Shown: positions 1-15,792, counted from the stretch's first letter. The stretch is DNA of 15,792 nucleotides from a bacterium (GCA_021160245.1 JAGHCW010000198.1:1-15792); one strand, 5' to 3'. Made by a program: numbers and translations. The notes: a model not told the origin generated them from the sequence alone.

Positions 1-1041
1 CTGCACCTGCTTCCCTTGAATATCTTCAGCGAATTGCTTGTATCGAGGCACTGCATTGCTGGAGAAGAAGATTATTTCGTCGGCCAGTGCTTCATCGATT
101 CGCTCTTGAGTCCAAATCCAATGTCTGCCCTTTGGTGGTGACAGAAGCCCCTGGTTACCAAAGCGCCTTGGTTCGCCCTGACCTGCAGCGTTCATTGAAA
201 CGGATTTGAATCGTCTGCCGGTAGCCGCGTCGAGATGTGGATATTCTTGCGCTGTCTCCTCGTCTGTTCTCGGGATGAATATTTTATTGTATGACCATCG
301 ATTGGATTTAGAGAACCAGAAGATCGTATCCGTGATGATGCCAAAGCGATTGCCGTCGTTATGACTGTAAGATCGTCGCCAAGTAATCTCGTTGCGAATA
401 CCATCCAGTCCGAATATCTCTCCTAGAATGACACGGATATAAGCGTTCACCCGCCAATCACAATGCACATAAATGCTGCCATCCTCCGCCAGCAAATCGC
501 GCATTAGGACGAGGCGCTCGTAGATCATTGCGATGAAGGAGTCGGCGCCTTTGCCCCATGTGTCGCGGTAGGCGATCTCTTCCATTATGTTTGGCTTTTT
601 GGTGAACGTGTCGCCGCCGATCTCGATGTCCATGGAAAAGTCCGCGCCCACGTCAAAGGGCGGGTCAATGTAGATCAGCTTGAGGCCACCCTGCGCCTCG
701 ATCTCCTGGCGCAGCGGGCCGTTCTTCAAACTGGAGAGGATGAGCTTGTTATCGCCCCAAATCAGCTTGTTCGTCCAGCCCTTGAGTTGGCGGCCGCGGT
801 CGTCCAAGAGGCCCAATTGCAGAGCAGTGTCAGCGGGCTTCTCGGCGCGCGGCTCATCGACCTGTTCGATGACCTGAAATGGCAGGACGACGCTCGTAAC
901 CTCGCTGGTCTTGCCGTTCCAGACCAGTTCCACCTCACGCTTGTCAGCAAACAGCAGGAAGCGATACTTATCCGGCAGCGGCTTATCCGCCTCGATATAG
1001 CGGATGACTTCCTGTCTTTCCTGATCGGTCAGTCGCGGCAT
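1..1041 (-). CDS. DNA methyltransferase, type III Mod-like (partial, C-terminus outside window)
   Basis: The frame is open from an ATG at 1041 to base 1, giving 347 codons with no stop, so the C-terminus lies beyond the window. The start is well supported: GGAGGA lies 5 nt upstream (+ strand 1047-1052). The N-terminus (MPRLTDQERQEVIRYIE, then KYRFLLFADKREVELVWNG) is an accessory segment seen ahead of the catalytic domain in Mod-like enzymes. Next come IWGDNKLIL (about 108-116) and the catalytic motif IV at 126-129, DPPF inside LIYIDPPFDVGADFS. A later segment, EDGSIYVHCDW, is typical of beta-class amino-methyltransferases. The enzyme should transfer a methyl group from SAM to an adenine N6 or cytosine N4 in a specific DNA sequence. 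Whether it pairs with a type III restriction subunit or is an orphan cannot be seen, because the downstream gene is outside the window. It follows the radical SAM gene after a 111-bp gap and has its own strong RBS. Confidence 0.9.
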   Translation of the reverse strand, partial: MPRLTDQERQEVIRYIEADKPLPDKYRFLLFADKREVELVWNGKTSEVTSVVLPFQVIEQVDEPRAEKPADTALQLGLLDDRGRQLKGWTNKLIWGDNKLILSSLKNGPLRQEIEAQGGLKLIYIDPPFDVGADFSMDIEIGGDTFTKKPNIMEEIAYRDTWGKGADSFIAMIYERLVLMRDLLAEDGSIYVHCDWRVNAYIRVILGEIFGLDGIRNEITWRRSYSHNDGNRFGIITDTIFWFSKSNRWSYNKIFIPRTDEETAQEYPHLDAATGRRFKSVSMNAAGQGEPRRFGNQGLLSPPKGRHWIWTQERIDEALADEIIFFSSNAVPRYKQFAEDIQGKQVQ

Positions 1042-1152
1042 CGGCGTCCTCCAGAGTTCTCAGCTTTTAGGCCCGGCGTCCATCCTTTATTCCAGCAATT
1101 GTAAGAATACCGTTACTCAGATAATTTTACAGTGCCATTTGTGCCGCATCTC

Positions 1153-2547
1153 TCAGCGCCTCGCTTTGCGGAGGACGGAGCGGATGCGGCCGGCGAGGCG
1201 ATCGGGTTGGCTGATTGCTTTTAGCGCCCACGAGGCGAGGCGCTTTGGTGAGCGGAGTTTGTGCGATAGGTTCAGCCGTTCGATGCGACTCTCATATTCT
1301 CTGAGGTCGTCGAACGTTAGGTTCTTGAGTTTGACATTCGTGCCGCCTCGGGCCTTGCTTTTTACGTTATCAAACTCGTCCGGGTCGGACATCTCGGCGA
1401 GGCAGCCTGCTTCGACTATTGCTCGATACATATCGGTCTCAGGCAGCGCGGAGCAGAAATAGACATAGATGTCATCTGGCTTTGCGCGCCTCATCAAATC
1501 ATAGGTCGCCTGAAGCTCCTCTTTTGTCTCATCGGGTGCGCCTAATATCACGTTGGCGGTGGCCTGAATGCCGGCCTTCCTGCACCACCGGAAGGCGTCC
1601 TCAACCTGCGACGGCGTGATGCCCTTTTTATAGAAATCTAGTACCCTTTGCGAGCCAGCCTCGACCCCAAAGCTGATGACTTTGCAGCCACAGCGCTTCA
1701 TCGTGGCTAAGAGTTGTGGGTTTATCGTATCGACCCTCGCGCTGCAATGCCATTTGGGGGAGAGTCGCTTTGATGCGAGGATATTCCCCAGCTCCTCGAA
1801 CCAAGAGATGCCAAGTAGCGACATTGTGTCGTCCTTGAAAAAGATGCCGACGCTTGGGCCGAAGCGCCCGATGACCTCCTCGATTTCCGACGCGACATTC
1901 GAAGCAGAGCGCTTCCTGAGCTTGCCGAAGAGTTTATCGAGCGTTGGCTTGCAGAAACTGCACTTGAATGGGCAGCCGCGCGTTGCGATCATCCCGACCT
2001 GATTAAGCCCGCCTTGACGCTCATATCTGGCGTAGTCGATCAGGTCTCTTGCGGGAAACGGCAGAGCGTCGAGGTTCTTGATAAATGGCGACGCGGGTGC
2101 TTTATGCAGTTTCCCGTTCTTGAGGCAAGCTGTGCCGTTCGTGTCGATTTGGGTTCCTGAGGCGAGATGCTCGATGAACTCCACAAACGCCCGTTCGCCC
2201 TCGCCGATGAGAGCATAATCGAAACCCGCTCGCAGAACCTCTTCAGGCAGAATTGTAGCGTGAACGCCTCCTGCAACAACAATGGCGTCCTTCGTAACTG
2301 ATCTGACGAATTTCAGGACGCGCTTTGCCCGCCCAAAGAGCGGCGATGTGAAACCGAACGCGATTATATCCGCATCCGCAAACTCGCCTTCAAATGGGTC
2401 AAGGTACGCCTCAAATGTCAGGTCAATGACGCCGACGTCGTGGCCCGCGGCGCGAAGGCTGGAGGCCACGTACAGTATCCCCAACGGCTCCTCGTCGAGT
2501 ATTCCGCCCTGGTAGTCGAATCTCGGATATACGAGCGTGATCTTCAT
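1153..2547 (-). CDS. B12-binding-type radical SAM enzyme (BchE/HpnP-like architecture)
   Basis: The gene encodes 464 aa. Residues 1-130 or so form a Rossmann-like cobalamin-binding-type domain (KITLVYPRF at the start, VVAGGVHATILPEE near 90-103, IGEGE near 114-118). The cobalt-coordinating DxHxxG motif is absent, as in many members of this group. The radical SAM domain has the CxxxCxxC cluster motif as RGCPFKCSFC (Cys192, 196, 199), then the FGVEAGSQRVL strand/loop near 293-303 that contacts SAM. The C-terminal 80 residues are basic (LRSPKRLASWALK, ending RSVLRKARR), as in family members acting on lipids, isoprenoids or peptides. It should cleave SAM reductively using a [4Fe-4S] cluster, possibly with methylcobalamin as methyl donor; the substrate is unknown. 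Its ATG overlaps the TGA of the small ORF upstream (ATGA), so translation is probably coupled. No strong Shine-Dalgarno sequence is seen. It is probably the last gene of the cluster. Confidence 0.9.
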   Translation of the reverse strand: MKITLVYPRFDYQGGILDEEPLGILYVASSLRAAGHDVGVIDLTFEAYLDPFEGEFADADIIAFGFTSPLFGRAKRVLKFVRSVTKDAIVVAGGVHATILPEEVLRAGFDYALIGEGERAFVEFIEHLASGTQIDTNGTACLKNGKLHKAPASPFIKNLDALPFPARDLIDYARYERQGGLNQVGMIATRGCPFKCSFCKPTLDKLFGKLRKRSASNVASEIEEVIGRFGPSVGIFFKDDTMSLLGISWFEELGNILASKRLSPKWHCSARVDTINPQLLATMKRCGCKVISFGVEAGSQRVLDFYKKGITPSQVEDAFRWCRKAGIQATANVILGAPDETKEELQATYDLMRRAKPDDIYVYFCSALPETDMYRAIVEAGCLAEMSDPDEFDNVKSKARGGTNVKLKNLTFDDLREYESRIERLNLSHKLRSPKRLASWALKAISQPDRLAGRIRSVLRKARR

Positions 2548-2729
2548 CGAATTTTGCCGCTATCTATGTAGCGCCTCGCGCAAATGATGATCCCGATAGT
2601 CTTAATCATGAGCTGGATATTAGGCGACTTGGGGATCATCCGCAAGGGCACACATGCCCGAATTATCTGACTGGGGCTTGCCAAGAGAAATCTGGGGAGC
2701 AACTTCCGTTGATCGAAGATGTTGTCCAA
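2544..2729 (-). CDS. small basic ORF coupled to the downstream radical SAM gene; possible gene remnant
   Basis: A 61-codon frame starts at a TTG, or can be read from a stop at 2754-2756, and ends in a TGA that overlaps the ATG of the radical SAM gene. The product is basic and partly hydrophobic (LLPRFLLASPSQIIRA, then IQLMIKTIGIIICARRYI). I do not recognise it. Its character resembles the basic, helical tail found at the C-terminus of many radical SAM proteins. It could therefore be the surviving 3' end of a decayed third radical SAM gene. Alternatively it is a genuine small protein, or even a peptide substrate, translated just ahead of the enzyme. No Shine-Dalgarno sequence precedes the TTG, and the frame is closed by two stops upstream (2754-2756 and 2772-2774). 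The 4-base overlap is the best argument that it is translated. Confidence 0.4.
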   Translation of the reverse strand: MDNIFDQRKLLPRFLLASPSQIIRACVPLRMIPKSPNIQLMIKTIGIIICARRYIDSGKIR

Positions 2730-2808
2730 TAGGTCGGTCTTTCGACGGAGATGTTACAAACTGTTTAGCGTTCAGTTACGGCGAAGCAAGCAGATTCTGG
2801 TCGGCTTT

Positions 2809-3078
2809 CTAAGACTCCGGCCCATCCGGTTCATCCCATCCATTGACGCAACCAACCACTCCCACAACGATGATCATTCCTCCGACAGTGATGGCGATCA
2901 CACCACCAGTACGACCCAAATTTTGACCGAGTCTGCTCAGGATATACCATGTCGTCTGTGCCCGAATCCGCCTAACATTCTGTGATTGTGGTGTCTTTTC
3001 GACGGTTCGCGTTGCGCCGAATAGACCGACAAGGATCAGGATTATCCCCATCCAAATCATCAGTTTGAAGACGTTCAT
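2809..3078 (-). CDS. small two-helix membrane protein, unknown function
   Basis: The gene encodes 89 aa with an ATG preceded by GGGAG at a 6-nt spacing (+ strand 3085-3089), which supports the start. Residues about 5-21 form a hydrophobic helix (MIWMGIILILVGLFG). A basic, polar stretch follows (residues 24-56, with VRRIRAQ and SRLGQNLGR). A second hydrophobic helix spans about 59-80 (VIAITVGGMIIVVGVVGCV), and the tail is acidic (WDEPDGPES). By the positive-inside rule the basic loop should be cytoplasmic, placing both ends outside. The N-terminus is vaguely like DUF2905-type small membrane proteins, but the rest does not fit. No function can be assigned. It lies 57 bp after the CinA-type gene and about 80 bp before the small basic ORF, inside the radical SAM cluster. 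Confidence 0.75.
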   Translation of the reverse strand: MNVFKLMIWMGIILILVGLFGATRTVEKTPQSQNVRRIRAQTTWYILSRLGQNLGRTGGVIAITVGGMIIVVGVVGCVNGWDEPDGPES

Positions 3079-3135
3079 TACAATCTCCCGGTGAATCAGA
3101 TGCGCAAGCCGCGACTCAATTCACAATTATCTTTC

Positions 3136-3627
3136 TTAGCTCAGCAGAAGGCTCAGCGATTCGAATGCGCCGTGAAACTTGACCGCCAGCCGAGGCGCCT
3201 CGTAATGGAATCGGTGAGATTCTGTCGATGTTGCGGTCGAGATGGCGATGAAGAATGTCCCTGGAGGGAGAGTATCGCCCTCGGATGCGGGCCCTGCAAA
3301 GCCTGTTGTCCCAAGGCCGATGTCAGAGCGACAGAGCTCGCGGACCTTCGCGGCCATGATCTTAGCAACCTCTGCGCTTGCAACGCCATATCTGTCGATG
3401 AGTTCATGAGGCACTCCGAGCAGCTCGATCTTCGCGCTTGGGTTATAGACACAGAGGCCGGCGATGAAGAACTTCGAGCTACCGGGGACGTTTGTCAGAA
3501 CGTGCGAAACAAGTCCTCCGGTGAAGGATTCTGCGACTGCAAGCGTCAAGTTCCGTTTCGTCATGAGGTCCGCCACATCATGTGCCAGCCGCTCAGATTC
3601 TGCCCTTAGCTCGGCAATATCAGACAC
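3136..3627 (-). CDS. pncC: CinA C-terminal-domain amidohydrolase (nicotinamide-nucleotide amidase type)
   Basis: A stand-alone CinA C-terminal domain. I chose the GTG at 3627, which overlaps the end of the upstream radical SAM gene by 8 bases and has a purine-rich GGGAAGAAG stretch upstream. It gives 163 aa, the usual length for PncC (about 165 aa). A longer ATG frame from 3684 would add 19 residues unlike the family. Family motifs appear in order: VAESFTGGLVSHVLTNVPGS (31-50), with the nucleophile Ser34 in the usual AESxTGG; GLCVYNPSAKIELLGVP (57-73), with the Tyr and Lys of the Ser/Tyr/Lys active site; then GVASAEVAKIMA; TTGFAGP (107-113); and PGTFFIAI (122-129). The usual Cys after the nucleophilic Ser is Phe here. 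Characterised members deamidate nicotinamide mononucleotide to nicotinic acid mononucleotide, recycling pyridine nucleotides. Why it sits between radical SAM and membrane genes is unclear. Confidence 0.9.
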   Translation of the reverse strand: MSDIAELRAESERLAHDVADLMTKRNLTLAVAESFTGGLVSHVLTNVPGSSKFFIAGLCVYNPSAKIELLGVPHELIDRYGVASAEVAKIMAAKVRELCRSDIGLGTTGFAGPASEGDTLPPGTFFIAISTATSTESHRFHYEAPRLAVKFHGAFESLSLLLS

Positions 3628-4966
3628 CGCTCTTCTTCCCAAGCATCCGTCTGATGGCCCTTTTTGCGCCATAGATAATGCCAAAGACCTTCCCGAGCAG
3701 TCGGGTTCGCTTGTTCATGTAAAAGAGCCGCCTCAAGCCCGATTGCGTCTTGGGCAGCGTCGTCTCGTTCGGAGAGAGCATGCCCTCCTCGACTGCGGTC
3801 TTGTGTATCTCGGCATGAGGTTCGATGCGGATGTAACTGGCGAATACACGACATCTGGAGCGAAGCTTGAGCTTTGCGCTCACGAAGAACTTGAGCAGCT
3901 TGAAGAAGTCCGAGAGCCGCTCCCCGGGCGGGCTTATGAAAAAGTTGTACGAAACTCTAGCGCGAGGATCGCGACTCGCCATCTCAAATGTTTTCTCTAT
4001 ATCTCTTCGCCTCGAGACCTTTCCCATGCGTTTTAGAACGTGATCGGCAAAAGCGTCTGGAGAAAAGGCGAACTCAACGCAGCCCGCCTCGACCGCAAGC
4101 TCCCACTGCTCCTTCGAAAGATTACGCTCTGCAAACCAGGCGATCCAATCGACCTTGTCGCCCAGGCCCCGGCGGATAATCTCGCTGCAGACCGCCTCGC
4201 AGTGGGACGATGGGATATTGAAGACGGGGTCAATGAACTGGAACGTCTTGAGGCCGTGCTGCTCGATGAGCATTTGGACTTCATCAACTATTCTCTCAGG
4301 TAGCCTGCACCGCACTCTTGAGCCATTCAGGAAGGGATAGACGCAGTATATGCAATGTTGGGCACAACCCCTACTGCTCTCGACGCCCACGTTAAACGGC
4401 GCCCTCAAGTACGGCTTGGGGTCAACGATATAAGGTTCAGCGTCCGGATACTCCGCCAGATCGAAGAGCTCGCCTCGGCCGGCGTTTTTTATCTTGCCAT
4501 TCGCTCGATAGAGCAGGCCGCCAACTTCTTCCGGGCGGCTCAGACTCGAAGATAGCGAGCGGAAAACATACTCGCCCTCGGACACGATGCCAAAATCGAG
4601 CTGGGGAACCCGCTCCATGATCTCTTCTGCGTAGATCGAAAATCCAGGCCCCCCGATCACGAGGCATGTTCCCGGACACTTGGCCTTGATGGCCTCGGCC
4701 GTTCGGGGAGTCTCAAGGAAATAGTAGAAGCGGTCGCGGAATTGGGTAGTATCGACATTGCGTAGGGAGATGCCGACCATCTCCGGGCTCTGCGTTGAAA
4801 GGGCTTGGTCAAGCGCGTCGTAAGGCCGCTCTTGAAGGTTCATATCCAGCACTTCGATCTCGTGCTCAGTGGACTTTCTCATGAATCTACCGAGCGCGTT
4901 CAAGCCTGCCGGGAATACGGGTGGCTCAAGACGTCCGAGATAGGCCTGAACAAGTAGTATCCTCAA
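3620..4966 (-). CDS. B12-binding-type radical SAM enzyme
   Basis: The gene encodes 448 aa. The start is a TTG whose last two bases overlap the TGA of the VanZ-like gene (TTGA), a coupled junction. The N-terminal domain (MRILLVQAYLGRLEPPVFPAGLNALG, continuing to LVIGGPGFSIYAEEI near 102-116 and VSEGEYVF near 128-135) has the B12-binding-type Rossmann pattern without the DxHxxG cobalt-ligand motif. The radical SAM cluster motif is SRGCAQHCIYC, with Cys201, 205 and 208. The SAM-contact region, normally GIESG-like, reads VEFAFSPDAF near 297-306 and is followed by LKRMGKVSRRRDIEKTF, the usual MGK(x)n(D/E)I segment. The C-terminal tail is very basic (YMNKRTRLLGK, GAKRAIRRMLGKKSG). The substrate is unknown. 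It differs markedly from the other radical SAM protein in this cluster, so the two are unlikely to be recent duplicates and may act on successive steps. Confidence 0.9.
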   Translation of the reverse strand: MRILLVQAYLGRLEPPVFPAGLNALGRFMRKSTEHEIEVLDMNLQERPYDALDQALSTQSPEMVGISLRNVDTTQFRDRFYYFLETPRTAEAIKAKCPGTCLVIGGPGFSIYAEEIMERVPQLDFGIVSEGEYVFRSLSSSLSRPEEVGGLLYRANGKIKNAGRGELFDLAEYPDAEPYIVDPKPYLRAPFNVGVESSRGCAQHCIYCVYPFLNGSRVRCRLPERIVDEVQMLIEQHGLKTFQFIDPVFNIPSSHCEAVCSEIIRRGLGDKVDWIAWFAERNLSKEQWELAVEAGCVEFAFSPDAFADHVLKRMGKVSRRRDIEKTFEMASRDPRARVSYNFFISPPGERLSDFFKLLKFFVSAKLKLRSRCRVFASYIRIEPHAEIHKTAVEEGMLSPNETTLPKTQSGLRRLFYMNKRTRLLGKVFGIIYGAKRAIRRMLGKKSGV

Positions 4967-5382
4967 TATTTCCGCCTCGCCCGCGTGCTTCGGATGCGTC
5001 GAAAAGTGAAGATTATGGCTTGCGCCAGAGCCGCCCCGACAACATCCGCGCCGATGTCCCTGAAACTGGCGTCTCGACCTTTGACGAAGTATTGGTGGAA
5101 CTCGTCCGTCGCGGCGAACGCAAGGCAGAATATGACCGCCATCAGCCCGGCCATGATTGGGCCATAAGAGAGCGGCCTTTGTCTGAACGCGATGTGAGCG
5201 AGCAAGCCCATCAAAAAATACTCGATCGCGTGCAACACGTAGTCTGGGAGGCGATTCAGTTCACTAGGGACGCTCGACATGGCCGAGGCAATAAAGACTA
5301 GTAGGCAATAGAAAGCGAGTGATCCCCAGATTAGACCGGGGCGAGGCGAGATTCTCATATATGTATCCCAATCATTGTGCAT
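4963..5382 (-). CDS. VanZ-like integral membrane protein
   Basis: The gene encodes 139 aa with four predicted membrane helices (about 16-36, 47-66, 73-91 and 109-128) and a basic C-terminus (FRRIRSTRARRKY). VanZ-family hallmarks are clear: DYVLHAIEYFLMGLLAH near 47-63, then ATDEFHQYFVKGRDASFRDIGADVVGAAL near 91-119, with the conserved DE(x)HQ, GR(x)(x)(x)(x)D(x) and D(x)(x)(x)N/G elements. VanZ proteins are associated with low-level teicoplanin resistance in enterococci, but most bacterial homologues have no assigned biochemical role and probably act at the envelope. An ATG at 5358 (MRISPRP) would remove eight residues and is an alternative start; neither has a good Shine-Dalgarno sequence. 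It is the first gene of the cluster, with a candidate promoter about 45 bp upstream. Confidence 0.88.
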   Translation of the reverse strand: MHNDWDTYMRISPRPGLIWGSLAFYCLLVFIASAMSSVPSELNRLPDYVLHAIEYFLMGLLAHIAFRQRPLSYGPIMAGLMAVIFCLAFAATDEFHQYFVKGRDASFRDIGADVVGAALAQAIIFTFRRIRSTRARRKY

Positions 5383-5427
5383 AGCGGACAGTCTGGCTTC
5401 AACCTGATTCTTCTAGCTCCTTAAGAT

Positions 5428-5455: not shown

Positions 5456-5509
5456 GCCCTCGATTGGTGCGAATTGGCAGGCGGCAGATATGCGCACGCG
5501 CTGTTCTGA

Positions 5510-7636
5510 TTACGGCCTACTGCCCCGGTCCGATTGGTGTGGAGGTGGCATCCCCGGACCTATGAGCCGGCGTCCATAGATCTCAGCGCGGCCGAATGAC
5601 GCTGCAATTCGCCACTTGGGGGAATGACGAATGGTCTCGACCGTCGGATCGGGCCTGCTATTGCCACGGGGTCTGCTGCCAAGGAAGACGTAGGCCGGCG
5701 TCGCGCCCTCATTTCCTCTGTGAAGTTCGTCAAAATAGAAGGGGTTGGAAGCGGGGTATAAGATACTTCTCTCGCAGATGGCGGGTATCCAAAGGCCGCT
5801 GTAGTCGTGTTCGGGGACATTCAAGATTATCTCAGCCCGACTCGTATTCTGTTTGATCCATTCAAACGCGCGCATGTCGTCCTGCGAAACGGAGCTCTGA
5901 GACGAGAAATTTACAGTGTAAAATTGATTGTAATAATCCCAGCATAGGCCGGCCACAAGGACCACTGCCATCCCGACCACAGAGAGGCCGACCGCTGCGA
6001 CGGCGAGCTTGCGCTTCCGCGCAAAAGACCATAACTGAAACAACAGTAAGGCGAAGACTAGCGGAAGAACATGTCGAAAACGAAGCGCGCCTAGCCATTG
6101 AGTGTCAAGCAATTTAGAAGCCACGCGTAGTGAAACAACAATAACCGCAAGAAATGCGCAGGCCAGCGGCAACACTCTAGAGACCCGGTATCGAACGAGC
6201 GCTTTGGAGGATTGCGCCAATCCTAGCTTGCTCTTAGCTGTAAAATCCATCAGTTTATCGACGAGACCGGCGCAGATCACGGACATCGGGGCTAGCAGCA
6301 TCATGGCCATTCGTTCTGGATACAGAGCATAAGAAAACGGCAGTATCCAATACTGCGAGTTCACGACCAGGCCGATTGGAACCAGGGAGGACAGGAATAC
6401 CGACAATCGCATCTTCCAGCTGAGCGTCGAGATGAACATACCCAAAAGGATGATATACACAAAAGGGTTCTTAAACGTAAAACGTATGTATAGGGGGATA
6501 GTCCGGAGGCTGTCTTGGATGGTCCCGTTCCAGGAATGCCCCTCGTCCCTTTGCCACGATTTGCACCACTGGACCTCCCCCTCGCTCACTTCCGGCGAAA
6601 ACCCAGCGAGGAATGGCCCGACCAATAGAAGCGCGATTAAAGAGACCAGAAAGCCTCTCCCGGCATAGGCTTTGAGACGGCCGAGTCTGCTTGTGGCCAC
6701 GGCGTACAATGAGAAGCACAGGCAAAAAGCAACCAAGAAATAGGTTGCCCCCAGAAATGGGATCGAATGAGTGAGCAATGCGGCGCCCCATAAGGAGGAC
6801 TGAACTAGAAGCCCCAGAAAGCTGTGGTCACGGCTTAAACGAAAGAACGGCCCAAGTGCGGCTAGAATGAAGGCAAATGACAGCACTGTGGGATTGCCAC
6901 CTCCCTCACTGTAAATCTGAGGCGAGGCGGCAAGGAAGGTTGCAAGGGCCGCGGTACAAAGAGAGACGGCCGGGTTAAACCACACTCGAAGGAGCAGAAA
7001 CAGTCCAAAAGCCAGAAGAATGTACGTAAGACAAGTCCATAACATGGCACTGGTTTGAACTTCCAGCTCGGAAGTCAATGATGTGCAAGCGATGAGCACG
7101 GAGAAGCCTATCGGGTATTCGCCAAAAGAATCGATGGGAAGAAGCGGTCTATGAGTTCTCGGTATCGAATCGCTGTCGATTATGAGCCTAGCGTTGTAAG
7201 CATGCATGCTCATGTCGGGCCCTGGTGGCACGATCGCATTGACGGTCGGCAAGAGCCGGGCCAAGACGATTACAGCGGTCACAACTGCCAGCAGGAGCCA
7301 TGTTTCTTTGCCGAGACCCCTGGTCGGCCGGCGAGGCAGTCCTTTGTTGCCTCTCACTCCCAGGAAAACCAAAAGTCCGGCAAGAGCAAGAACTACTACC
7401 CAAATCAGAGATGACAGCGAGATCGGGATGTATCTTGTGAGCCAGGGCAGAAATGTCCAGCAGCTTATGCCGAAGAAGATGCAGTATATCGCTCTGGTGA
7501 AGAGATCGAGCGCTCTGAAGCCGCCCAAAATCCAGAGCAACGTCGCTGGCAGAGCGAACATTCCGACCGCCGGGAACGCAACTAACAAGGCGATAAGCAG
7601 AAGCCATACTACTGCAGTGGTGCGATTGGTGTTCAC
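5510..7636 (-). CDS. large polytopic membrane protein, glycosyltransferase-C / DUF6541-like
   Basis: The gene encodes 708 aa from a GTG at 7636, with a G-rich stretch (GGGGGGGA) about 6 nt upstream as a possible RBS. There are a dozen or more hydrophobic segments, from WLLLIALLVAFPAVGMFAL (11-29) through the 520-570 region, and then a soluble C-terminal domain from about 585 (DDMRAFEWIKQNT, ILNVPEHDYSGLW). This plan, with an acidic motif in the first large extracytoplasmic loop (PPGPDMSMHAYNA, Asp141 and His145) followed by GEYPIGFSVLIA near 172-183 and a C-terminal periplasmic domain, is that of GT-C glycosyltransferases and DUF6541 proteins. These use polyprenyl-phosphate sugars as donors. 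Donor and acceptor cannot be inferred. It lies downstream of tRNA-Leu and 127 bp upstream of the VanZ-like gene, perhaps with its own transcript. The word CGAGGC, common elsewhere, is almost absent here. Confidence 0.75.
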   Translation of the reverse strand: MNTNRTTAVVWLLLIALLVAFPAVGMFALPATLLWILGGFRALDLFTRAIYCIFFGISCWTFLPWLTRYIPISLSSLIWVVVLALAGLLVFLGVRGNKGLPRRPTRGLGKETWLLLAVVTAVIVLARLLPTVNAIVPPGPDMSMHAYNARLIIDSDSIPRTHRPLLPIDSFGEYPIGFSVLIACTSLTSELEVQTSAMLWTCLTYILLAFGLFLLLRVWFNPAVSLCTAALATFLAASPQIYSEGGGNPTVLSFAFILAALGPFFRLSRDHSFLGLLVQSSLWGAALLTHSIPFLGATYFLVAFCLCFSLYAVATSRLGRLKAYAGRGFLVSLIALLLVGPFLAGFSPEVSEGEVQWCKSWQRDEGHSWNGTIQDSLRTIPLYIRFTFKNPFVYIILLGMFISTLSWKMRLSVFLSSLVPIGLVVNSQYWILPFSYALYPERMAMMLLAPMSVICAGLVDKLMDFTAKSKLGLAQSSKALVRYRVSRVLPLACAFLAVIVVSLRVASKLLDTQWLGALRFRHVLPLVFALLLFQLWSFARKRKLAVAAVGLSVVGMAVVLVAGLCWDYYNQFYTVNFSSQSSVSQDDMRAFEWIKQNTSRAEIILNVPEHDYSGLWIPAICERSILYPASNPFYFDELHRGNEGATPAYVFLGSRPRGNSRPDPTVETIRHSPKWRIAASFGRAEIYGRRLIGPGMPPPHQSDRGSRP

Positions 7637-7694: not shown

Positions 7695-7783
<89 letters not shown>

Positions 7784-8030: not shown

Positions 8031-10055
8031 CTACTCGTGGAATTGAACCATCGACATCAGCCCCGCGAGTCTCGTGCGGCTGGGACTCTCGAGTTTGATG
8101 GACGAGATCACAATGTTGCCACTGCCGTAGAATCTCAACGCGATATGCTTCACCATGCGTTTCTCAAAAACCCATTCAGGTCGAGAGCCGAGATCGATAT
8201 TGACGAGGTCGAAGCTCCCGGCGTCAACGTGCGTGCTAGGGTCGCCCTCTAGCCATCTGGATGAGGTAAGCTGCATCGCGGGTTCTTTCCGAACCTCCCT
8301 CGGGCGAATCTCTGATCTTGGATTGTCTCGCGTCTCATCCTCCGGCAGTAGTATCCACACTAGCTGGCAATCGATGCTTCTGGACAATTGTGTGCGATCA
8401 ATTGAGATAACGACATTGGCGATCCCAAGCGTTGAAGTATTCAGAAGAGGGCTTGTCAGAACGGCGGCTTCGCTCTCTGTGATTCTCATATTGATGGCCG
8501 TGTTCAGACCTTTGTTGGCTTCATCAGAGGAGTCGATCATGGAGAGCTCGGCGCCGCTACACTTCCATTGAGAGAGGGGAAATCCACCCGGTCCCCAGAA
8601 GAGGCTCTTTTGGCCATAACTCAACTTCCCGAAGCGCGCCGCCAATTGTTTGCATTGCAGGGAGAGCTCGTTGTCCTGCTGAGCACCGAAGCCGACCATT
8701 TTGAAGAAGAATTCGGGAGCGGCATGGTCCTCATATAAGTAGTTTATCAGTTTCTCGCACCTGAATTTGCCTGCCGATGTGCTGTCGTACTCGCTGATCC
8801 GAGACAGATTGAACTGTGGGTCAATGTTGGCAAAGTATAGAACAGTCCCCGGTTTGGGTGTTCCCACAACTCCCCAGATTGAGCTGAGAGCCTTTCGGAT
8901 CGGTATGGATTCGCTCCAGGTTCGGGTATTCATGTAGGCAAATGGGATTTGGCCGATGAAGAGAAGGATTGCGGCCGCGGAACCGATTGAGGCCAGTCGC
9001 TTAGTCCAGTGGAACCTGGTGAATTTGCCTGCCAGCTTTCGAACACCGATGACGAGGCACCATGCCACCGCCATGGTGTAGCCGGCGCTCGGGACATAAA
9101 CAAATCGCTCCTGGGGCTCAATCTGAAGGGGCGGCAAGAAGGGCAGAAGCAGAAATACTAGTGCGAAAATATACTGCCTCCTCGCAAATGGTATCATGGC
9201 GAGCAGCAATACCCATATCTGATTTGGGAAAAATGCCAGTCGAAGGTACTGGCCCATTTTGGCGAAGAGGCCAAGTGGATCGTCCAAGAATAGCCTCATG
9301 TAGCTCACATTCTGTTCATATCGAGCGATCCTGAAGACGATATAGACGGCAAGTATGAGCAAAAACGGCGAGGCGTTCTTCGCTATCGCGATGACAGAGT
9401 CTTTTAGGCGAGTGCTCCTAACTCTTGTGCACGCGTCGAATGCGATCATGACAAATGGAAGCGTTACCCCAACCTCCTTTGAGCCAAGACACAGGACAAC
9501 GAACACGCCGGTGAAGATGAGCCATTTGCGAATTTGAGCGGGCGTTCCACGCTGTCGAGCGTCGAGGTAACGGCTGAAGGCAAGAAGAGACGCAAGATAA
9601 AACGTCAAACATGAGACGTCAAAGAGCGACACGATCAGACAGATGCACTCGCTATGTATCGGGTGAGTGGCGAATATCAGCGCCGAGGCGACGCTCACGA
9701 ATCTGTTTCGGAAGAGAACCTTTGCCAATGAAAAGACCAGGAATACGTTGATAAGATGAATAAAGATGAGCATAAAGCGATAGCCTACGTAGTTGGACTC
9801 GAACAGAGCGTATCCAATACGGAAGATAACCATCGCTGTGGGTCGGCAGAAGTTCCATAGCCCGTTCCAAGTCTGGTCGATTAGCGCCGCAAGAGAGAAC
9901 GGCAGCATGTGGGCGAAGGTCTCCGGAATCGGAAAGTCATCCAGGCTCACGCCATATATCAGAAGCGACACTAAGACCGTCAAAGGTATGAATACATACC
10001 ACCGCGAGAGAAACTCAGCGGTCTTAGATTCCCAGTGTGTCAGGCCATTCTCCAT
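8031..10055 (-). CDS. polytopic membrane protein, TMTC/PMT-like (putative lipid-linked-sugar glycosyltransferase)
   Basis: The gene encodes 674 aa. The first membrane helix (VFIPLTVLVSLLIYGV, about 21-36) is followed by SLDDFPIP with the acidic pair Asp39/Asp40, as expected for the catalytic first loop of GT-C enzymes. Next come RPTAMVIFRIGYALF (71-85), YRFMLIFIHLINVFLVFSLAKVLF (92-115) and ALIFATHPIHSECICLIVS (125-143). The R-P-(x)n-HP(V/I)HSE series is the signature of the TMTC/DUF1736-related group, whose eukaryotic members are O-mannosyltransferases. About ten helices run to roughly residue 365. The C-terminal 300 residues look soluble and extracytoplasmic (from TRTWSESIPIRKAL onward) rather than tetratricopeptide repeats. 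Donor and acceptor are unknown. The ATG at 10055 lacks a clear Shine-Dalgarno sequence. A candidate promoter lies 115 bp upstream. Confidence 0.78.
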   Translation of the reverse strand: MENGLTHWESKTAEFLSRWYVFIPLTVLVSLLIYGVSLDDFPIPETFAHMLPFSLAALIDQTWNGLWNFCRPTAMVIFRIGYALFESNYVGYRFMLIFIHLINVFLVFSLAKVLFRNRFVSVASALIFATHPIHSECICLIVSLFDVSCLTFYLASLLAFSRYLDARQRGTPAQIRKWLIFTGVFVVLCLGSKEVGVTLPFVMIAFDACTRVRSTRLKDSVIAIAKNASPFLLILAVYIVFRIARYEQNVSYMRLFLDDPLGLFAKMGQYLRLAFFPNQIWVLLLAMIPFARRQYIFALVFLLLPFLPPLQIEPQERFVYVPSAGYTMAVAWCLVIGVRKLAGKFTRFHWTKRLASIGSAAAILLFIGQIPFAYMNTRTWSESIPIRKALSSIWGVVGTPKPGTVLYFANIDPQFNLSRISEYDSTSAGKFRCEKLINYLYEDHAAPEFFFKMVGFGAQQDNELSLQCKQLAARFGKLSYGQKSLFWGPGGFPLSQWKCSGAELSMIDSSDEANKGLNTAINMRITESEAAVLTSPLLNTSTLGIANVVISIDRTQLSRSIDCQLVWILLPEDETRDNPRSEIRPREVRKEPAMQLTSSRWLEGDPSTHVDAGSFDLVNIDLGSRPEWVFEKRMVKHIALRFYGSGNIVISSIKLESPSRTRLAGLMSMVQFHE

Positions 10056-10399
10056 GACGAGAAGACTGCCAGTTCCCTACCGTCTTTGCAACCCTGGCCC
10101 AAGAAGGAGATGACTATTTTATGTATTCGCTCTCGACGAGGCGCAGTATCGCTTTCGCCCGATGAGCTCATTATCTACACGGATTGGCTGACGTTTAACT
10201 CGATCGTTGACGAAAGAGGTTGCAAAACAAACCCGTGCCGCTTAACCTCAACTTGCATGATATGAGGAGGCAATTCTCATCTGGAGACCGTCCAAATGTG
10301 AATTGCGCCGCGTCGAGGCCTGATTCCCGTTCTGGGCAACCTCCATATTCGCCATTCGCTAAACATTCCGATTCAGCTTGAGGGGACAACGTCAAAGAG
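10056..10399. other. 344-bp divergent intergenic region
   Basis: This region separates the minus-strand GT-C-like gene from the plus-strand transporter. I see no convincing gene in it. A minus-strand promoter candidate is listed separately. For the transporter I found no convincing -35/-10 pair. ATGAG at 10262-10266 and CTCAT at 10276-10280 form a weak inverted repeat on the plus strand, with GAGGAGG between the arms. Confidence 0.6.
10170..10198 (-). promoter_or_regulatory. candidate promoter for the TMTC-like gene
   Basis: On the minus strand, TTAAAC (+ 10193-10198) is followed after 17 bp by GATAAT (+ 10170-10175). The -10 matches five of six consensus bases and the -35 four of six. It would start transcription about 105-110 nt upstream of the ATG at 10055. 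Seen by eye only. Confidence 0.3.
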
Positions 10400-11773
10400 A
10401 TGACCGATAAGCCGACCAGAAGAGCCGCGCTGCTCATCGCGGTCATCTCATCATTCCTGATCCCGTTCGTGAGTTCCGCCGTCAACATCGCGCTGCCCAC
10501 CATCGGCAAGGAGTTTGGGAGCAATGCCCTCGCGCTAGGCTGGATTTCGACCTCATATCTGCTTGCATCGGCGATGTTCCTCGTGCCGTTCGGGCGACTC
10601 TCCGACATCTATGGCCGGAAGCGACTCCTAAAATGCGGCATGTTCATTTACATAATCGCCTCGTTCTTCTGCATCATCTCAGACTCCGCCTCGTTTCTGA
10701 TAGCGTCCCGCTGCCTGCAAGGGATTGGAGCCGCGCTGTTCTTTGCGCCATCTCTCGCCATTCTGGTCACGGTTTTCCCGGAGAACAAACGAGGCAAGGC
10801 CCTGGGGATAGCTATCGCCTCGGTCTATCTTGGCCTTTCTGCAGGTCCATCCATCGGCGGCATTATGACGCAACATCTAGGCTGGCGGAGCATTTTTGCC
10901 GTCAACTTCGCACTCGGCGCCTTGGTCATCATCGTCATCTACACAATGCTGAAGGGCGAATGGGCGGGCGCAAAAGGGGAGAAGTTCGACCTCACTGGCT
11001 CCGTTATCTATAGCCTCGTCCTTGTTGCGACCATATATGGTTTCTCACATTTGTCAGAGTCGCTTGGCCACTGGTTCTTTGGAGCAGGCGTAGTCGGGCT
11101 GATAGCGTTCATCGCATTTGAGATGAGGCAGGAAAGTCCAGTCCTCAATGTCAAACTCTTCGCGGGGAACCGGGTCTTTGCGCTGTCCAACGTTGCGGCG
11201 CTCGTCAACTACAGCGCGACTGCCGCCGTAGTGTTTCTGCTTAGCCTTTACTTGCAGGCGATCAAAGGCCTCAGCCCGCAGGACGCCGGCCTTATCATGC
11301 TATGGCAGCCCATAACGCAGGCGATTATTTCGCCATTTGCTGGAAGACTTTCCGATAAAGTTGAGCCTCGAATAGTCGCCTCGGTCGGCATGTTCCTGAC
11401 CGCTGTTGGGCTTGTCCTTTTGGCATTCTTGGGTGACGCAACCTCGCTTACTTACGTTCGCGCGGTCCTAATCCTCATTGGGCTTGGGCTTGCGCTATTT
11501 TCATCCCCAAACACGAACGCCGTGATGAGTTCTGTCGATAAGAAGCACTATGGCTTCGCCTCGGCCACTGTCAGCACGTTCCGCCTCATCGGGATGACGC
11601 TCAGCATGGGCATCGTGATGCTGCTCCTATCGCTCTATATCGGCGAGGCGCAGCTGGCGCCTGCGCACCACGCCGGTTTCCTCGACGCCCTCAGGATGAC
11701 CTTCGCCATCTTCGCCGCTCTATGTGCCGCCGGCGTTCTTGCCTCGTTCGCCCGAGGCAAGCTGCGCGCCTAG
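10400..11773 (+). CDS. MFS transporter, DHA2 (EmrB/QacA) family
   Basis: The gene encodes 457 aa, with fourteen hydrophobic segments expected for DHA2 drug:H+ antiporters. Motifs seen: motif A GRLSDIYGRKR (65-75) between helices 2 and 3; motif B RCLQGIGAAL (104-113) in helix 4; motif C LGLSAGPSIGG (144-154) in helix 5, the antiporter motif; and GWRSIFAVNF (161-170). The helix-1 signature, usually LD(x)(x)VVNVALP, reads PFVSSAVNIALP, so the familiar acidic residue is missing and proton coupling or specificity may differ. It probably exports a small hydrophobic compound or metabolite across the inner membrane. The ATG at 10400 has only a weak AAAGAG ahead of it; a stronger GAGGGGA lies too far upstream. 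It is the only confident plus-strand gene and uses the word GCCTCG heavily, often as Ala-Ser codons (GCC TCG). A 9-bp hairpin lies at its 3' end. Confidence 0.9.
   Translation: MTDKPTRRAALLIAVISSFLIPFVSSAVNIALPTIGKEFGSNALALGWISTSYLLASAMFLVPFGRLSDIYGRKRLLKCGMFIYIIASFFCIISDSASFLIASRCLQGIGAALFFAPSLAILVTVFPENKRGKALGIAIASVYLGLSAGPSIGGIMTQHLGWRSIFAVNFALGALVIIVIYTMLKGEWAGAKGEKFDLTGSVIYSLVLVATIYGFSHLSESLGHWFFGAGVVGLIAFIAFEMRQESPVLNVKLFAGNRVFALSNVAALVNYSATAAVVFLLSLYLQAIKGLSPQDAGLIMLWQPITQAIISPFAGRLSDKVEPRIVASVGMFLTAVGLVLLAFLGDATSLTYVRAVLILIGLGLALFSSPNTNAVMSSVDKKHYGFASATVSTFRLIGMTLSMGIVMLLLSLYIGEAQLAPAHHAGFLDALRMTFAIFAALCAAGVLASFARGKLRA
11738..11761 (+). repeat. perfect 9-bp inverted repeat at the 3' end of the transporter gene
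   Basis: CTTGCCTCG (11738-11746) and CGAGGCAAG (11753-11761) are perfect reverse complements with a 6-nt loop TTCGCC. The arms are two inverted copies of the word that is over-represented across the window. The hairpin ends 10 bp before the stop codon at 11771-11773. No T-run follows directly, so it is not a classical intrinsic terminator, but it could slow or end transcription with help. Confidence 0.6.
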
Positions 11774-12268: not shown

Positions 12269-12586
12269 GTGATTTCGGAATCGATAGCACAGGGCATTAG
12301 ATCCGCCTTCACGACCCTAATTATGGAGACCTATGTAAATCCGTGGCGCCCTGTCCCGCCCACATTATGGCTCGTGTTCTGGTGTCTATGGTCAATGATA
12401 ACGACGCGGCGTAGAGCTAACTTGCCGTGGTCAAGGTGGCGAAGGTGGGCGCTCTATTATCTGGCAGTGATTCCCACACTGGGATGCGATGCCTTCGATG
12501 AATTATCAGACTATTTGAGGGGGAATATGCCGCCTCCAGAACCGTTCCCGGTCGCACCCACATCGTCTGAAGCCCGTGGAAGCTAA
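12269..12586 (+). CDS. hypothetical small membrane protein (doubtful)
   Basis: An open frame of 105 codons from GTG at 12269; an internal ATG at 12323 would give 87 aa. The product is tryptophan-rich. It has two moderately hydrophobic stretches, PPTLWLVFWCLWSMI and WALYYLAVIPTLGC, separated by a basic loop (TTRRRANLPWSRWRR), followed by an acidic/proline-rich tail (DAFDELSDYLRGNMPPPEPF). This is consistent with a small two-helix membrane protein. No family is recognised. There is no clear RBS at the ATG; the GTG has only a G-rich stretch. It lies alone in a gene-poor region, so chance openness is quite possible. Confidence 0.35.
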   Translation: MISESIAQGIRSAFTTLIMETYVNPWRPVPPTLWLVFWCLWSMITTRRRANLPWSRWRRWALYYLAVIPTLGCDAFDELSDYLRGNMPPPEPFPVAPTSSEARGS

Positions 12587-12951
12587 ATTGAGGTGATAGA
12601 GGCAGAGAAGGCTAGGTCAGCGAAGCGGGATGCGTCGAAGTAGGCTCCTGTTGCGAGGAAGATGCGTAGCAACGTGCTCAGGAGATGGTCTTGATCCGAG
12701 AGCAGGACGGGATGGCGACGCACTTCGACGACGCCTGGCGGGTGCCTATGGCACACGGGGGGGGGACCCACTCGAAGGGGCTGTTGGCCGGAACCCGCGT
12801 GGGGTGTAGCTCCCACCCGCCTGGGGGGCGGGCTCTCCAGCCTACAATTTGAGAGCCAGCCCGATAGGTTGAATCTGAGTCCCCATTACACATTGATTCT
12901 GGTGATTAACGAACCACTGAACCGCCGTCTGAAAAGCCCGCTATGCGTCGC
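12587..12951. other. 365-bp gene-free region between the small ORF and the peptidase
   Basis: No convincing protein gene. The first part (12587-12740) is featureless. The second part (12742-12857) is a dense series of GC-rich inverted repeats with a run of nine G residues at 12757-12765, listed separately. Two overlapping minus-strand frames here (12583-12816 and 12678-12893) look like chance or decayed reading frames. No intrinsic terminator with a T-run was found after the peptidase stop codon. Confidence 0.55.
12742..12857. repeat. cluster of four GC-rich inverted repeats (possible structured RNA or dispersed repeat)
   Basis: Four stem pairs lie within 116 bp. GTGCC-TAT-GGCAC is at 12742-12754. 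GTGGG (12799-12803) pairs with CCCAC (12812-12816). CCCGCC (12816-12821) pairs with GGCGGG (12827-12832) around TGGGG. GGCTCTC (12831-12837) pairs with GAGAGCC (12851-12857) around a 13-nt loop. Neighbouring stems share one or two bases, so they cannot all form at full length at once. A G9 run lies at 12757-12765. Which strand is transcribed, if any, is unknown. Confidence 0.5.
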
Positions 12952-14895
12952 TCAGCCAAGCGTCTTGATGGCGGCCATGGCATCGGACAGCAATTCGTCG
13001 GGGCTGATGGGCTTCCCAACGGCTTTTTTCATCCACAGGTCTGGGTAGATGTTGCCCAGAGCGCATATCCGCTCCAATTCTAAGGCGAGGTCGTGGCTCT
13101 TGAAGTAATTCTCAAGCTGGTGATTGATGATATGCCCAATCGGGTAGTCCGGCAAGTAGAGATAATTCGTAATCATGTGCGAATAGATGGCCAGGATGGA
13201 ATCGTCGGACTTGCCAAAGTGAGGCTCCCAATACTTGGCCCAAATGGCATTCGCGGCATCCAAGACGCTCCGCTTCAAATCGGCCGGTTTTGCGTCAGGG
13301 CACTTGTAGAGGTATCGCCAGGCGGCCATATCCACAAGCGACATTGCCGCAATCTCGCACGTCGATAGGTATGAATGTATCGCGGCTTCCGGGTTCGCCT
13401 CTTCGGCGGATATGCCGAGAACCTCTCTGTCTTTCCCCTGAAACAAGAACGCTATCGCCTCCGTGAAGGCCGTATTCGGAACACCCTCGAGCATTGTATG
13501 ATCGATCATATTCATGCTGATCGTCTGCTCCACAGTGTGGCCCAGCTCGTGCATAGCGATATTGAAAGCGTTGTAGTTCATCTTGCCATTCTCAGTGCGG
13601 ATTCTGAGCAGTGCCATTTCGTCTCGCATCCCGGCGCCGCGAGCGTGACCTGCGCTTCTTGATGGCTCGGCCCGGATATGAGTTGCGAGATATTGAGCCT
13701 TATCTCTCGAGAAGCCCAACTTCATGAGGATTTGCGGGATATTTTCGTTGAACGCATCGATATCCGGGTAATGCTTCTCAATGAGCCCGTCGAGCTCCGA
13801 TTGGCTCTCCATCGGCTTGAAGCCCTGATACCAGATGTCATAGGGTCTGAGATGGCGGCCCAATCGCTTCTTCATCTCCGTGGCTACATCACCCAGCGCC
13901 GGCGATGAAAGCAGTTGATCGAACATCTCCTCAGCCCTTGCCTCAGGAATCTCTCTGTGAAGGTTGAACCGGCGGTCAATCAGCGTCTTGTTGACTGTGT
14001 AGTATTTGTCCTGGCCCCGCTGGGCCTTGAAGACGTCAAACCAGATGGAATAACGGCGCTCACCCTCAGGCGTGAAGGCTTTGCTCTTGCCCGCCTCGTC
14101 AAAGCACTCATTGGTATATGGGCTCCAGACGGTCTTGCTGCTATTGATGACCTCGATCGGGATGGTCCCCTCGATGATATGTCTCATCACCCTCAGGATG
14201 AGTTCCTGCTTGGGCATGCCTTCGGGGTCGGCGTATAGCGCCTTTAGCTCGTCTCTTAGGCCCCAGTGCGAGATAAGCCGCTTTTCCTTCGTGTAGAGCC
14301 GCTTGCCGTCCTCGCCGACGAGGCAATTCATGAAGATATTGTAACCATTGATATATGTGTCGGCCTTGTTGACCGCGAGGAATATATTGTGCGAGACATC
14401 GGCCGGGACCCGGCTCTCGTAGTTCGCAAGCCTGACCTCTACCCATTTCTCCCGGCTCCATTCCGCATGATTCTTAATCATCGACTCGAATGTCTCCCGC
14501 TTGAAATTAAGCAGTATCACGAATGGGAGCTTGAGGTCGAATAGGTCGTCGGTTACGTGCTTGAACGGATTGAATCTCGCAAGCAGCTCATCTTGAGGCG
14601 AGAATGGGCCGAGCTCCAGATCTTTCCACTTGCTGAAACTCGTGTGGACCTCGAGAAGATGCCCGTGCAGTTTCTCAAACACGATCTCTAGTTTACCGCG
14701 AAACGCGGCGAGCTCCGTGGCATCATCTATGAAATACTTGAGGCAGAAATTGCCCAAGTCTTCCGGGGAGCCATCCTCTTTCTGCCAAAGCGAAAGTACT
14801 TGCTCAAAACCATTCTTGAATCGCTCTTTGCTCTTGAACCGCTTGCTCACCTCACCAAAGGTCTGCTCTCGCAGCTCGCTGGGAACATCAAACAT
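12952..14895 (-). CDS. zinc metallopeptidase, gluzincin type (M2/M3-like, HELGH)
   Basis: The gene encodes 647 aa from the ATG at 14895, chosen because AAAGGAG lies 5 nt upstream; an in-frame ATG at 14937 would add 14 residues but has no RBS. The zinc site is clear: AMHELGHTVEQTI (His449, Glu450, His453), then FTEAIAF with the third ligand Glu479, 26 residues after the second His. This is the spacing of gluzincins such as thimet oligopeptidase (M3) and ACE (M2). The C-terminus has DYPIGHIINHQLENYF, the helical segment with Tyr/His that binds substrate in related enzymes, and GNIYPDLWMKKAVGKPIS. The N-terminal two-thirds is helical and matches no family I can name confidently. No signal peptide is seen, so it is probably a cytoplasmic oligopeptidase. 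It is monocistronic as far as can be seen, with a repeat-rich leader upstream. Confidence 0.85.
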   Translation of the reverse strand: MFDVPSELREQTFGEVSKRFKSKERFKNGFEQVLSLWQKEDGSPEDLGNFCLKYFIDDATELAAFRGKLEIVFEKLHGHLLEVHTSFSKWKDLELGPFSPQDELLARFNPFKHVTDDLFDLKLPFVILLNFKRETFESMIKNHAEWSREKWVEVRLANYESRVPADVSHNIFLAVNKADTYINGYNIFMNCLVGEDGKRLYTKEKRLISHWGLRDELKALYADPEGMPKQELILRVMRHIIEGTIPIEVINSSKTVWSPYTNECFDEAGKSKAFTPEGERRYSIWFDVFKAQRGQDKYYTVNKTLIDRRFNLHREIPEARAEEMFDQLLSSPALGDVATEMKKRLGRHLRPYDIWYQGFKPMESQSELDGLIEKHYPDIDAFNENIPQILMKLGFSRDKAQYLATHIRAEPSRSAGHARGAGMRDEMALLRIRTENGKMNYNAFNIAMHELGHTVEQTISMNMIDHTMLEGVPNTAFTEAIAFLFQGKDREVLGISAEEANPEAAIHSYLSTCEIAAMSLVDMAAWRYLYKCPDAKPADLKRSVLDAANAIWAKYWEPHFGKSDDSILAIYSHMITNYLYLPDYPIGHIINHQLENYFKSHDLALELERICALGNIYPDLWMKKAVGKPISPDELLSDAMAAIKTLG

Positions 14896-14900
14896 AGGAA

Positions 14901-14907
14901 CTCCTTT
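14901..14907 (-). promoter_or_regulatory. ribosome binding site fixing the peptidase start
   Basis: AAAGGAG on the minus strand, followed by TTCCT and then the ATG at 14895. It is the best Shine-Dalgarno match in the neighbourhood and shows that the in-frame ATG at 14937 is probably not the start. Confidence 0.8.
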
Positions 14908-14917
14908 TTTCATTTGA

Positions 14918-14935
14918 GCGAACATCTGAGTTCGC
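14918..14935. promoter_or_regulatory. perfect inverted repeat ahead of the peptidase RBS (operator or leader hairpin)
   Basis: GCGAAC (14918-14923) and GTTCGC (14930-14935) are perfect reverse complements around six bases. The element ends 10 bp upstream of the RBS, so it can act either as an operator for a dimeric regulator or as an RNA hairpin next to the RBS. GAAC-N6-GTTC resembles LexA-type boxes (GAAC-N4-GTTC or GAAC-N7-GTTC), but the spacing fits neither. Confidence 0.45.
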
Positions 14936-14978
14936 ACCTATCGAAATAACGCTAATGATCGTAAATGGACTGCCGCCC

Positions 14979-14998
14979 GGCAGACTCCAATCTGCCGC
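14979..14998. repeat. 7-bp inverted repeat in the peptidase leader
   Basis: CGGCAGA (14979-14985) and TCTGCCG (14992-14998) are perfect reverse complements with a 6-nt loop. CTGCC at 14970-14974 can pair instead with GGCAG at 14980-14984, so two hairpins compete for the same bases. A second copy of the 11-mer CCCGGCAGACT (14976-14986) occurs at 15052-15062. Confidence 0.5.
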
Positions 14999-15010
14999 GT
15001 CGCTTTTTAT

Positions 15011-15030
15011 CTCATTCGTCCTCATTCGTC
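15011..15030. repeat. perfect 10-bp tandem repeat
   Basis: CTCATTCGTC occurs twice back to back (15011-15020 and 15021-15030). The period of one helical turn upstream of the peptidase gene would suit a regulator binding site, but a chance duplication is possible. Confidence 0.7.
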
Positions 15031-15063
15031 GCATTAGACCAAGCCAATGATCCCGGCAGACTG

Positions 15064-15792
15064 CTAATCCGTTTGACCACCTCGTCTGGCGATGATCTGG
15101 AATGTGTTCTGGGAGCGGATGAGGCTGTTGGCTATTATGCAAAGCGCCCCGTATCGGCGGGCGCAGTATTTGTCGAGCCTGATTATAGAGAGCCCATTGG
15201 CCTCAAGCACGGAAAGCACTTGTTCCGGGTCGATTCCCCCGAATTGACGCTGGATGTCCGATGTTGAGTAGTCAATGTCCTTTGCCTCATCGGGGAATTT
15301 TCTGAGATACCGTCTATAGATCGCCTCGTCTAGGGTGGCCGCCGCCCGGTGCATGGCGAACCTGAGTTTGCTTGATATGGCCTGCTTCAAGGGTTCATGC
15401 GTTATGAGAATGATGCCGCCTTCGGTCAGCCGCTTTGCCGCCAGCTCGAGCGCTTTTGGGACGTTCGTAACGTGGTGCAGCGTGCCGCAGAAGACGATGA
15501 GATCGAATTTGCTCCCGCAATTTTCCAGAAAATGAAACATGTCCGCACAGACGATCTTCGGTCTGACGTTGAGTTTTCGACCCGAGATTTTCTGCCTGAA
15601 CGCGAGCAGCATCTCGATAGAGAGGTCCAGCGAGGTAACGTCGAATCCGCTCTCGGCCAAAAGAAGCGAGACCTTGCCCGTCCCGCATCCGACGTCAAGC
15701 GCAGTTGGGCTTTTCGTCTGCTTTGCCAGTATCTCGCTGATGAGGCGGAATGTCGCCGCGCGCCGCTTGCGCTCATGGAAGTTGGTTTCCTC
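15064..15792 (-). CDS. class I SAM-dependent methyltransferase (partial, N-terminus outside window)
   Basis: The frame is open from the window edge to a TAG at 15064-15066, giving 242 visible residues; the start lies beyond the window. An internal ATG at 15660 lies after motif I and is not the real start. Motif I is ALDVGCGTGKVSLLLAESG (visible residues 31-49), which binds SAM. It is followed by VTSLDLSIEML, with the acidic ribose-binding residue; KIVCADMFHF; motif IV FDLIVFCGTLHHVTN; and LTEGGIILITHEP. This is the Methyltransf_11/25 pattern. The C-terminal part (YRRYLRKFPDEAKDIDYSTSDIQRQFG, then LEANGLSIIRLDKYCARRYGALC) is a variable substrate-recognition region; the acceptor is unknown. Members act on quinones, lipids, sugars or natural products. 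The gene ends 168 bp before the peptidase start. Confidence 0.9.
   Translation of the reverse strand, partial: EETNFHERKRRAATFRLISEILAKQTKSPTALDVGCGTGKVSLLLAESGFDVTSLDLSIEMLLAFRQKISGRKLNVRPKIVCADMFHFLENCGSKFDLIVFCGTLHHVTNVPKALELAAKRLTEGGIILITHEPLKQAISSKLRFAMHRAAATLDEAIYRRYLRKFPDEAKDIDYSTSDIQRQFGGIDPEQVLSVLEANGLSIIRLDKYCARRYGALCIIANSLIRSQNTFQIIARRGGQTD

Follow-up and report, generated by a model that had tools for sequence, protein, structure and literature searches.

A weakly over-represented, non-palindromic word, YGAGGCGC, in three genomes of an uncultured bacterial phylum

Background

The DNA uptake sequences (DUS) of the Neisseriaceae and the uptake signal sequences (USS) of the Pasteurellaceae are found at about one copy per kb and show no orientation bias, whereas a 9-mer USS would occur only about 4 times per Mb by chance (PMC1626085). 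The highly iterated palindromes (HIP), among them cyanobacterial HIP1 (GCGATCGC), are linked to methyltransferases and sporadically replace each other between genomes (PMC4390886). Most Chi-like words are over-represented, and the Chi sites of Escherichia coli lie almost exclusively on the leading strand (PMC8022716). In the same survey, which covers Proteobacteria, 75 over-represented octamers occur more widely than Chi; the most frequent, AGGCGCTG, is in excess in 39% of these bacteria (PMC8022716). Genome-wide words are the signature of machinery that recognises specific DNA sequences. Here we describe another such word, YGAGGCGC/GCGCCTCR, whose core CGAGGCG/CGCCTCG was noticed in a stretch of 15,792 nucleotides (JAGHCW010000198.1, hereafter the window) that forms contig C189 of the 3.43-Mb bacterial assembly G000 (244 contigs, 94.8% complete). 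The word is genome-wide and orientation-free, occurs in genes of both strands, in all frames and in intergenic DNA, and is shared by two genera.

Results

The original prediction, made from the window, had counted about 43 copies of the hexamer GCCTCG/CGAGGC and about 28 of the heptamer CGCCTCG/CGAGGCG; the actual counts are 44 and 29. A first-order Markov model predicts 14.5 and 4.3, and both words are the top ones by z. Most of the excess is absorbed by a maximal-order Markov model, which predicts 22.3 heptamers in the window, because this model is trained on the sub-words of the word itself; the test was therefore moved to the whole genome. The G000 genome contains 3,707 CGAGGCG heptamers (1861 and 1846 in the two orientations) compared to 762 copies of the reversed word (386 and 376), and in 268 kb CGAGGCG is the top heptamer, with 278 copies against 112 expected at Markov order 3 and 160 at order 4. 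The window is unusually rich in the heptamer (29 copies vs 17 expected at the G000 density, p 0.005), which is probably the reason why the word was noticed. By itself, the reversed-word control is weak evidence, as comparable raw ratios also occur in certain unrelated genomes; the unrelated G148, G097 and G022 have CGAGGCGC/reversed-word ratios of 8.6, 6.7 and 6.0, respectively, before any codon control.

Four genomes of the phylum, all from one family, were then compared, namely G000 (genus g1), G001 and G002 (g2) and G003 (g3). Synonymous codons were shuffled within each gene, so that all proteins and all codon counts were preserved. After this control, CGAGGCG ranked first of all heptamers in G000 (436 copies vs 140 expected, z 25), in G002 (219 vs 87) and in G001 (219 vs 93), and 2547th in G003 (38 vs 35). 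All six frame and orientation classes are enriched in G000, by 2.3 to 6.6 fold. CGAGGCG is also the top heptamer of G000 intergenic DNA (67 vs 14.8 expected), although the gene calls come from a simple codon-model caller written for this analysis and part of this "intergenic" DNA may be missed genes. The heptamer density is 0.93 per kb between genes and 1.04 per kb within them, the fold over expectation being higher between genes. The over-represented word is thus real and genome-wide. The earlier argument that codon preference alone does not suffice is supported by the shuffle, the six frame classes and the intergenic excess, and neither of the outcomes under which the prediction was to be abandoned, a codon-aware model that reproduces the count or a lack of enrichment elsewhere in the genome, was found. 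A positive control of the shuffle was obtained by accident: GCGATCG, the HIP1 core, was present 66 times against 8 expected in 20 kb of the unrelated genome G049, which thus shows strong enrichment of the HIP1 type.

The enrichment of the predicted GCCTCG/CGCCTCG holds, whereas its exact form proved slightly different, the fuller word being YGAGGCGC/GCGCCTCR. Compared with shuffled genes, GAGGCG is enriched in G000 only when preceded by C (3.1 fold) or T (2.7 fold), with ratios of about 1 after A or G; its excess is greatest when the next base is C, and the variant TGAGGCG is enriched 2.6 fold. The flanks, Y before and C after, are the same in the two genera. The 8-mer CGAGGCGC reaches 4.7, 3.9 and 4.1 times its codon-shuffled expectation in G000, G001 and G002, and 0.46 times in G003. 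Counts of YGAGGCGC against its reverse in whole genomes are 2470/295 in G000 (with the orientations balanced, 1235/1235), 1127/162 in G001, 2097/306 in G002 and 339/311 in G003. Genera g1 and g2 therefore carry the same word, and g3 is without it; a codon-controlled ranking of heptamers revealed no dialect of the word in G003. YGAGGCGC is not self-complementary. A piece of a longer dispersed repeat was considered and rejected, as the flanks are little informative past a few bases.

The copies in the window, listed by exact match to CGAGGCG or TGAGGCG ("8-mer" meaning that C follows), are:

510..516, + strand, CGAGGCG, 8-mer
694..700, - strand, CGAGGCG, 8-mer
988..994, - strand, CGAGGCG
1157..1163, - strand, CGAGGCG, 8-mer
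1194..1200, + strand, CGAGGCG
1231..1237, + strand, CGAGGCG, overlaps copy at 1236
1236..1242, + strand, CGAGGCG, 8-mer
1344..1350, - strand, CGAGGCG
1487..1493, - strand, TGAGGCG variant, then C
2158..2164, + strand, TGAGGCG variant
2407..2413, - strand, TGAGGCG variant
2572..2578, - strand, CGAGGCG, 8-mer
3191..3197, + strand, CGAGGCG, 8-mer, overlaps inverted copy at 3196
3196..3202, - strand, CGAGGCG, 8-mer
3729..3735, - strand, TGAGGCG variant
4008..4014, - strand, CGAGGCG
4085..4091, - strand, CGAGGCG
4193..4199, - strand, CGAGGCG
4471..4477, - strand, CGAGGCG
4973..4979, - strand, CGAGGCG
5342..5348, + strand, CGAGGCG
6918..6924, + strand, TGAGGCG variant, overlaps copy at 6923
6923..6929, + strand, CGAGGCG
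9369..9375, + strand, CGAGGCG
9684..9690, + strand, CGAGGCG
10137..10143, + strand, CGAGGCG, 8-mer
10657..10663, - strand, CGAGGCG
10687..10693, - strand, CGAGGCG
10816..10822, - strand, CGAGGCG
11377..11383, - strand, CGAGGCG
11557..11563, - strand, CGAGGCG
11582..11588, - strand, TGAGGCG variant
11644..11650, + strand, CGAGGCG, 8-mer
14092..14098, - strand, CGAGGCG
14594..14600, + strand, TGAGGCG variant
15322..15328, - strand, CGAGGCG
15741..15747, + strand, TGAGGCG variant

Word density is even across contigs, and contamination or a local island was rejected on this ground. The spacing between copies is near-geometric, that is, close to random, and regular spacing was likewise rejected. 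Whether recently acquired genes are poorer in the word was examined through codon typicality, with no consistent trend in G000 and G001 and a hint in G002. Between G001 and G002, which share 86% nucleotide identity, the word is retained at 54 of 107 directed sites (50%) compared to 42% for composition-matched words, a gap that by our own rough estimate is not significant; between G000 and G002 it is retained in only 6 of 77 directed comparisons. Sites thus turn over between species and the excess persists, which implies that new copies, and not retention alone, sustain it.

To assess strand polarity, the residual skew between G and C at third codon positions (GC3 skew) of the contigs, independent of gene strand, was taken as the mark of the leading and lagging strands. 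Divided in this way, the word excess is 146 vs 178 in G000, 61 vs 72 in G001 and 101 vs 88 in G002. Contig-level over-dispersion of the word is 21.3, 16.7 and 15.6 in these genomes, respectively, against fifth percentiles of 62.7, 24.9 and 31.7 under 75% polarity and of 36.7, 16.5 and 17.5 under 65% polarity. No strand polarity was therefore detected, a polarity of 75% being excluded in all three genomes and one of 65% in two, with the third borderline. The strong skew typical of FtsK-orienting polar sequences (KOPS) or architecture-imparting sequences (AIMS) was not found in these three genomes. These results disfavour a conventional Chi or KOPS function.

In G000 coding DNA the excess of the word amounts to about 290 sites, and no single neighbour differing by one base falls more than about 30 below its expectation. 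The lowest neighbours with a sizeable expectation are CGAAGCG (57 vs 87) and CGAGGGG (49 vs 70), and the sum of all 21 lies slightly above expectation (2101 vs 1896). As no neighbour is emptied, the word appears to be drawn from many of them, which disfavours a single-step repair bias.

ComEC, DprA and secretins were found in all four genomes. Since these include the word-less G003, the presence of competence machinery is not diagnostic. Proteins with AddAB-like nuclease domains, putative as to subunit, also occur in all four, and two PDDEXK_1 nuclease matches lie in nearby long frames of G000 contig C135, where they may represent RecBCD/AddAB subunits. Matches to the DNA methyltransferase family PF01555 are unusually many (33 in G000, 15 in G001, 28 in G002 and 15 in G003); the 33 of G000 are candidate cognate enzymes for the word. 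One lies in the window, at 1-1041 on the minus strand, looks type III Mod-like by eye and is cut by the contig end.

Discussion

The original prediction had pointed to HIP1, Chi and uptake sequences as words of similar behaviour, without choosing among them. The resemblances stand, but the defining feature of each (palindrome, polarity and strong consensus, respectively) is lacking, and YGAGGCGC fits no known family of genome-wide words. Like DUS and USS, it has about one copy per kb (3707 in 3.43 Mb) in equal orientations, occurs both in genes and in intergenic DNA, is common to genera of one family and is accompanied by competence genes. It differs from them by its weak enrichment, its shorter and looser core and its occurrence in an unrelated phylum, as well as by the lack of the higher non-coding density of DUS and USS; membership in DUS/USS is therefore not claimed. 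With HIP1-type words it shares the rank of top word in all contexts, the even spread and the presence in some relatives but not in others, whereas it is weaker, is not a palindrome and has only candidate methyltransferases. Like Chi and KOPS-type words it is short, non-palindromic, G-rich and over-represented in genomes with helicase-nuclease genes, but it has no strand polarity.

Our tentative preference, held with less than even confidence, is that fixation weakly biased in favour of the word maintains its excess, most likely through an uptake preference in natural transformation. A DNA-handling step acting on either strand would prefer DNA carrying YGAGGCGC, the likeliest being type-IV-pilus/ComEC transformation that is modestly selective for sequence; imported alleles carrying the word would then replace those lacking it, as for DNA uptake sequences but much more weakly. 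At stationarity, a scaled fixation bias near 1 (about ln 3) would account for a 3-fold excess. An uptake preference is supported by the density and the lack of orientation bias, which are as reported for USS and DUS, and further by the first rank after the shuffle, the flanks common to two genera, the even spread, the excess that outlasts site turnover and the presence of ComEC, DprA and secretins. Several observations weigh against it. The enrichment is only 3-5 fold, far below that of known uptake sequences, and, unlike in these, single-mismatch copies outnumber the perfect ones (2,101 vs 436 in G000 coding DNA). There is no excess of close inverted pairs, for which reason a terminator-like arrangement was also rejected. 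The word-less G003 carries the same competence genes as the others, the secretin matches fall under the PilQ family cut-off, and no receptor for the word was identified. To our knowledge, transformation is undocumented in this group. A literature search on the word itself returned nothing relevant. Over-represented octamers without known function are frequent, and the survey of Proteobacteria (PMC8022716) argues against assuming one for YGAGGCGC. More broadly, that this is a weak non-palindromic word of the uptake or recombination type, in a phylum far from the Neisseriaceae and Pasteurellaceae and without their classic strong consensus, is a possibility that we consider somewhat doubtful.

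In our best account, uptake is followed by non-polar repair or recombination and by context-dependent mutation, and then by methylation. A recombination or repair enzyme, such as an AddAB-like helicase-nuclease or mismatch repair, might favour the word through biased gene conversion or repair selection, as a Chi-like word without polarity. The nuclease matches on contig C135 and in all relatives, the G/A-rich composition, the Chi-like length and the frequent over-representation of Chi-like words would suit such an enzyme, whereas the excess is unpolarised despite the strand-specific GC3 skew of the contigs, in contrast to E. coli Chi; we consider this unlikely, though worth keeping in view. 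Equally unlikely in our estimation is that context-dependent mutation or repair gains copies of the word faster than it loses them, without any function. The weak excess and high turnover are consistent with this, and a neutral process would also act evenly over coding and non-coding DNA, strands and contigs; but a one-mismatch mechanism should deplete one donor neighbour, and none is depleted enough. Such a process would moreover need an 8-base context across several types of substitution, and the word is absent from G003 of the same family.

It is rather improbable that a methyltransferase marks YGAGGCGC and that repair or another reader favours the mark, as proposed for HIP1. The numerous PF01555 matches in G000 and G002, including that at the left end of the window, and the sporadic replacement of HIP words between genomes point in this direction, but known HIP words, some of which have cognate methyltransferases, are palindromic and YGAGGCGC is not, and G003 has its 15 matches without the word. 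An explanation by preferred codons or dipeptides, or by a compositional habit general to bacteria, is very improbable. Most copies do read as Glu-Ala (GAG GCG) or Ala-Ser (GCC TCG), the word far outnumbers its reverse in the raw counts of several unrelated genomes, and AGGCGCTG is widespread. Nevertheless, an excess of about 3 fold remains after the synonymous shuffle, which refutes codon usage as the sole cause in G000, and it is seen in every frame and between genes. A general habit was rejected because the word is not the top one in unrelated genomes after codon control, three of those with a high raw ratio dropping to ranks 32, 159 and 91 (z 3.0-4.5). AGGCGCTG itself is barely enriched in G000 coding DNA (47 vs 34 in the codon-shuffled expectation) and is thus not the same word as YGAGGCGC.

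Explanations by codons, strand, a single repair step or contamination were testable here and have mostly been set aside. The presence of the word in two genera and its absence from a third of the same family provide a natural comparison for finding its reader. If the word reflects an uptake preference, sequence-biased transformation would extend to a new phylum and be more general than the two classic families, and if it is of the uptake or recombination type, such a word would have been caught at low strength, with a scaled bias of about 1. If uptake is not involved, the analysis names a non-polar word without assigned function.

The gene content of the window is ordinary and comprises radical SAM/B12 proteins, CinA, VanZ, an MFS transporter, a mannosyltransferase-like protein, a methyltransferase and tRNA-Leu. 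Among the named relatives found, the closest was a contig to which its depositors gave the label Candidatus Coatesbacteria bacterium B130_G9, with 73% identity in one protein. A 661-aa protein encoded at 12952-14937 on the minus strand has no Pfam match but contains a HELGH motif (MHELGHTVEQ), which suggests a putative metallopeptidase; its sole relative found is in Ca. Coatesbacteria B130_G9. A second, weaker word, CAAGAGC/GCTCTTG, also exceeds its codon-shuffled expectation in the coding DNA of G000, G001 and G002, with 195/95 copies observed/expected in G000, 105/55 in G001 and 107/61 in G002, the figures for G003 being 52/34.
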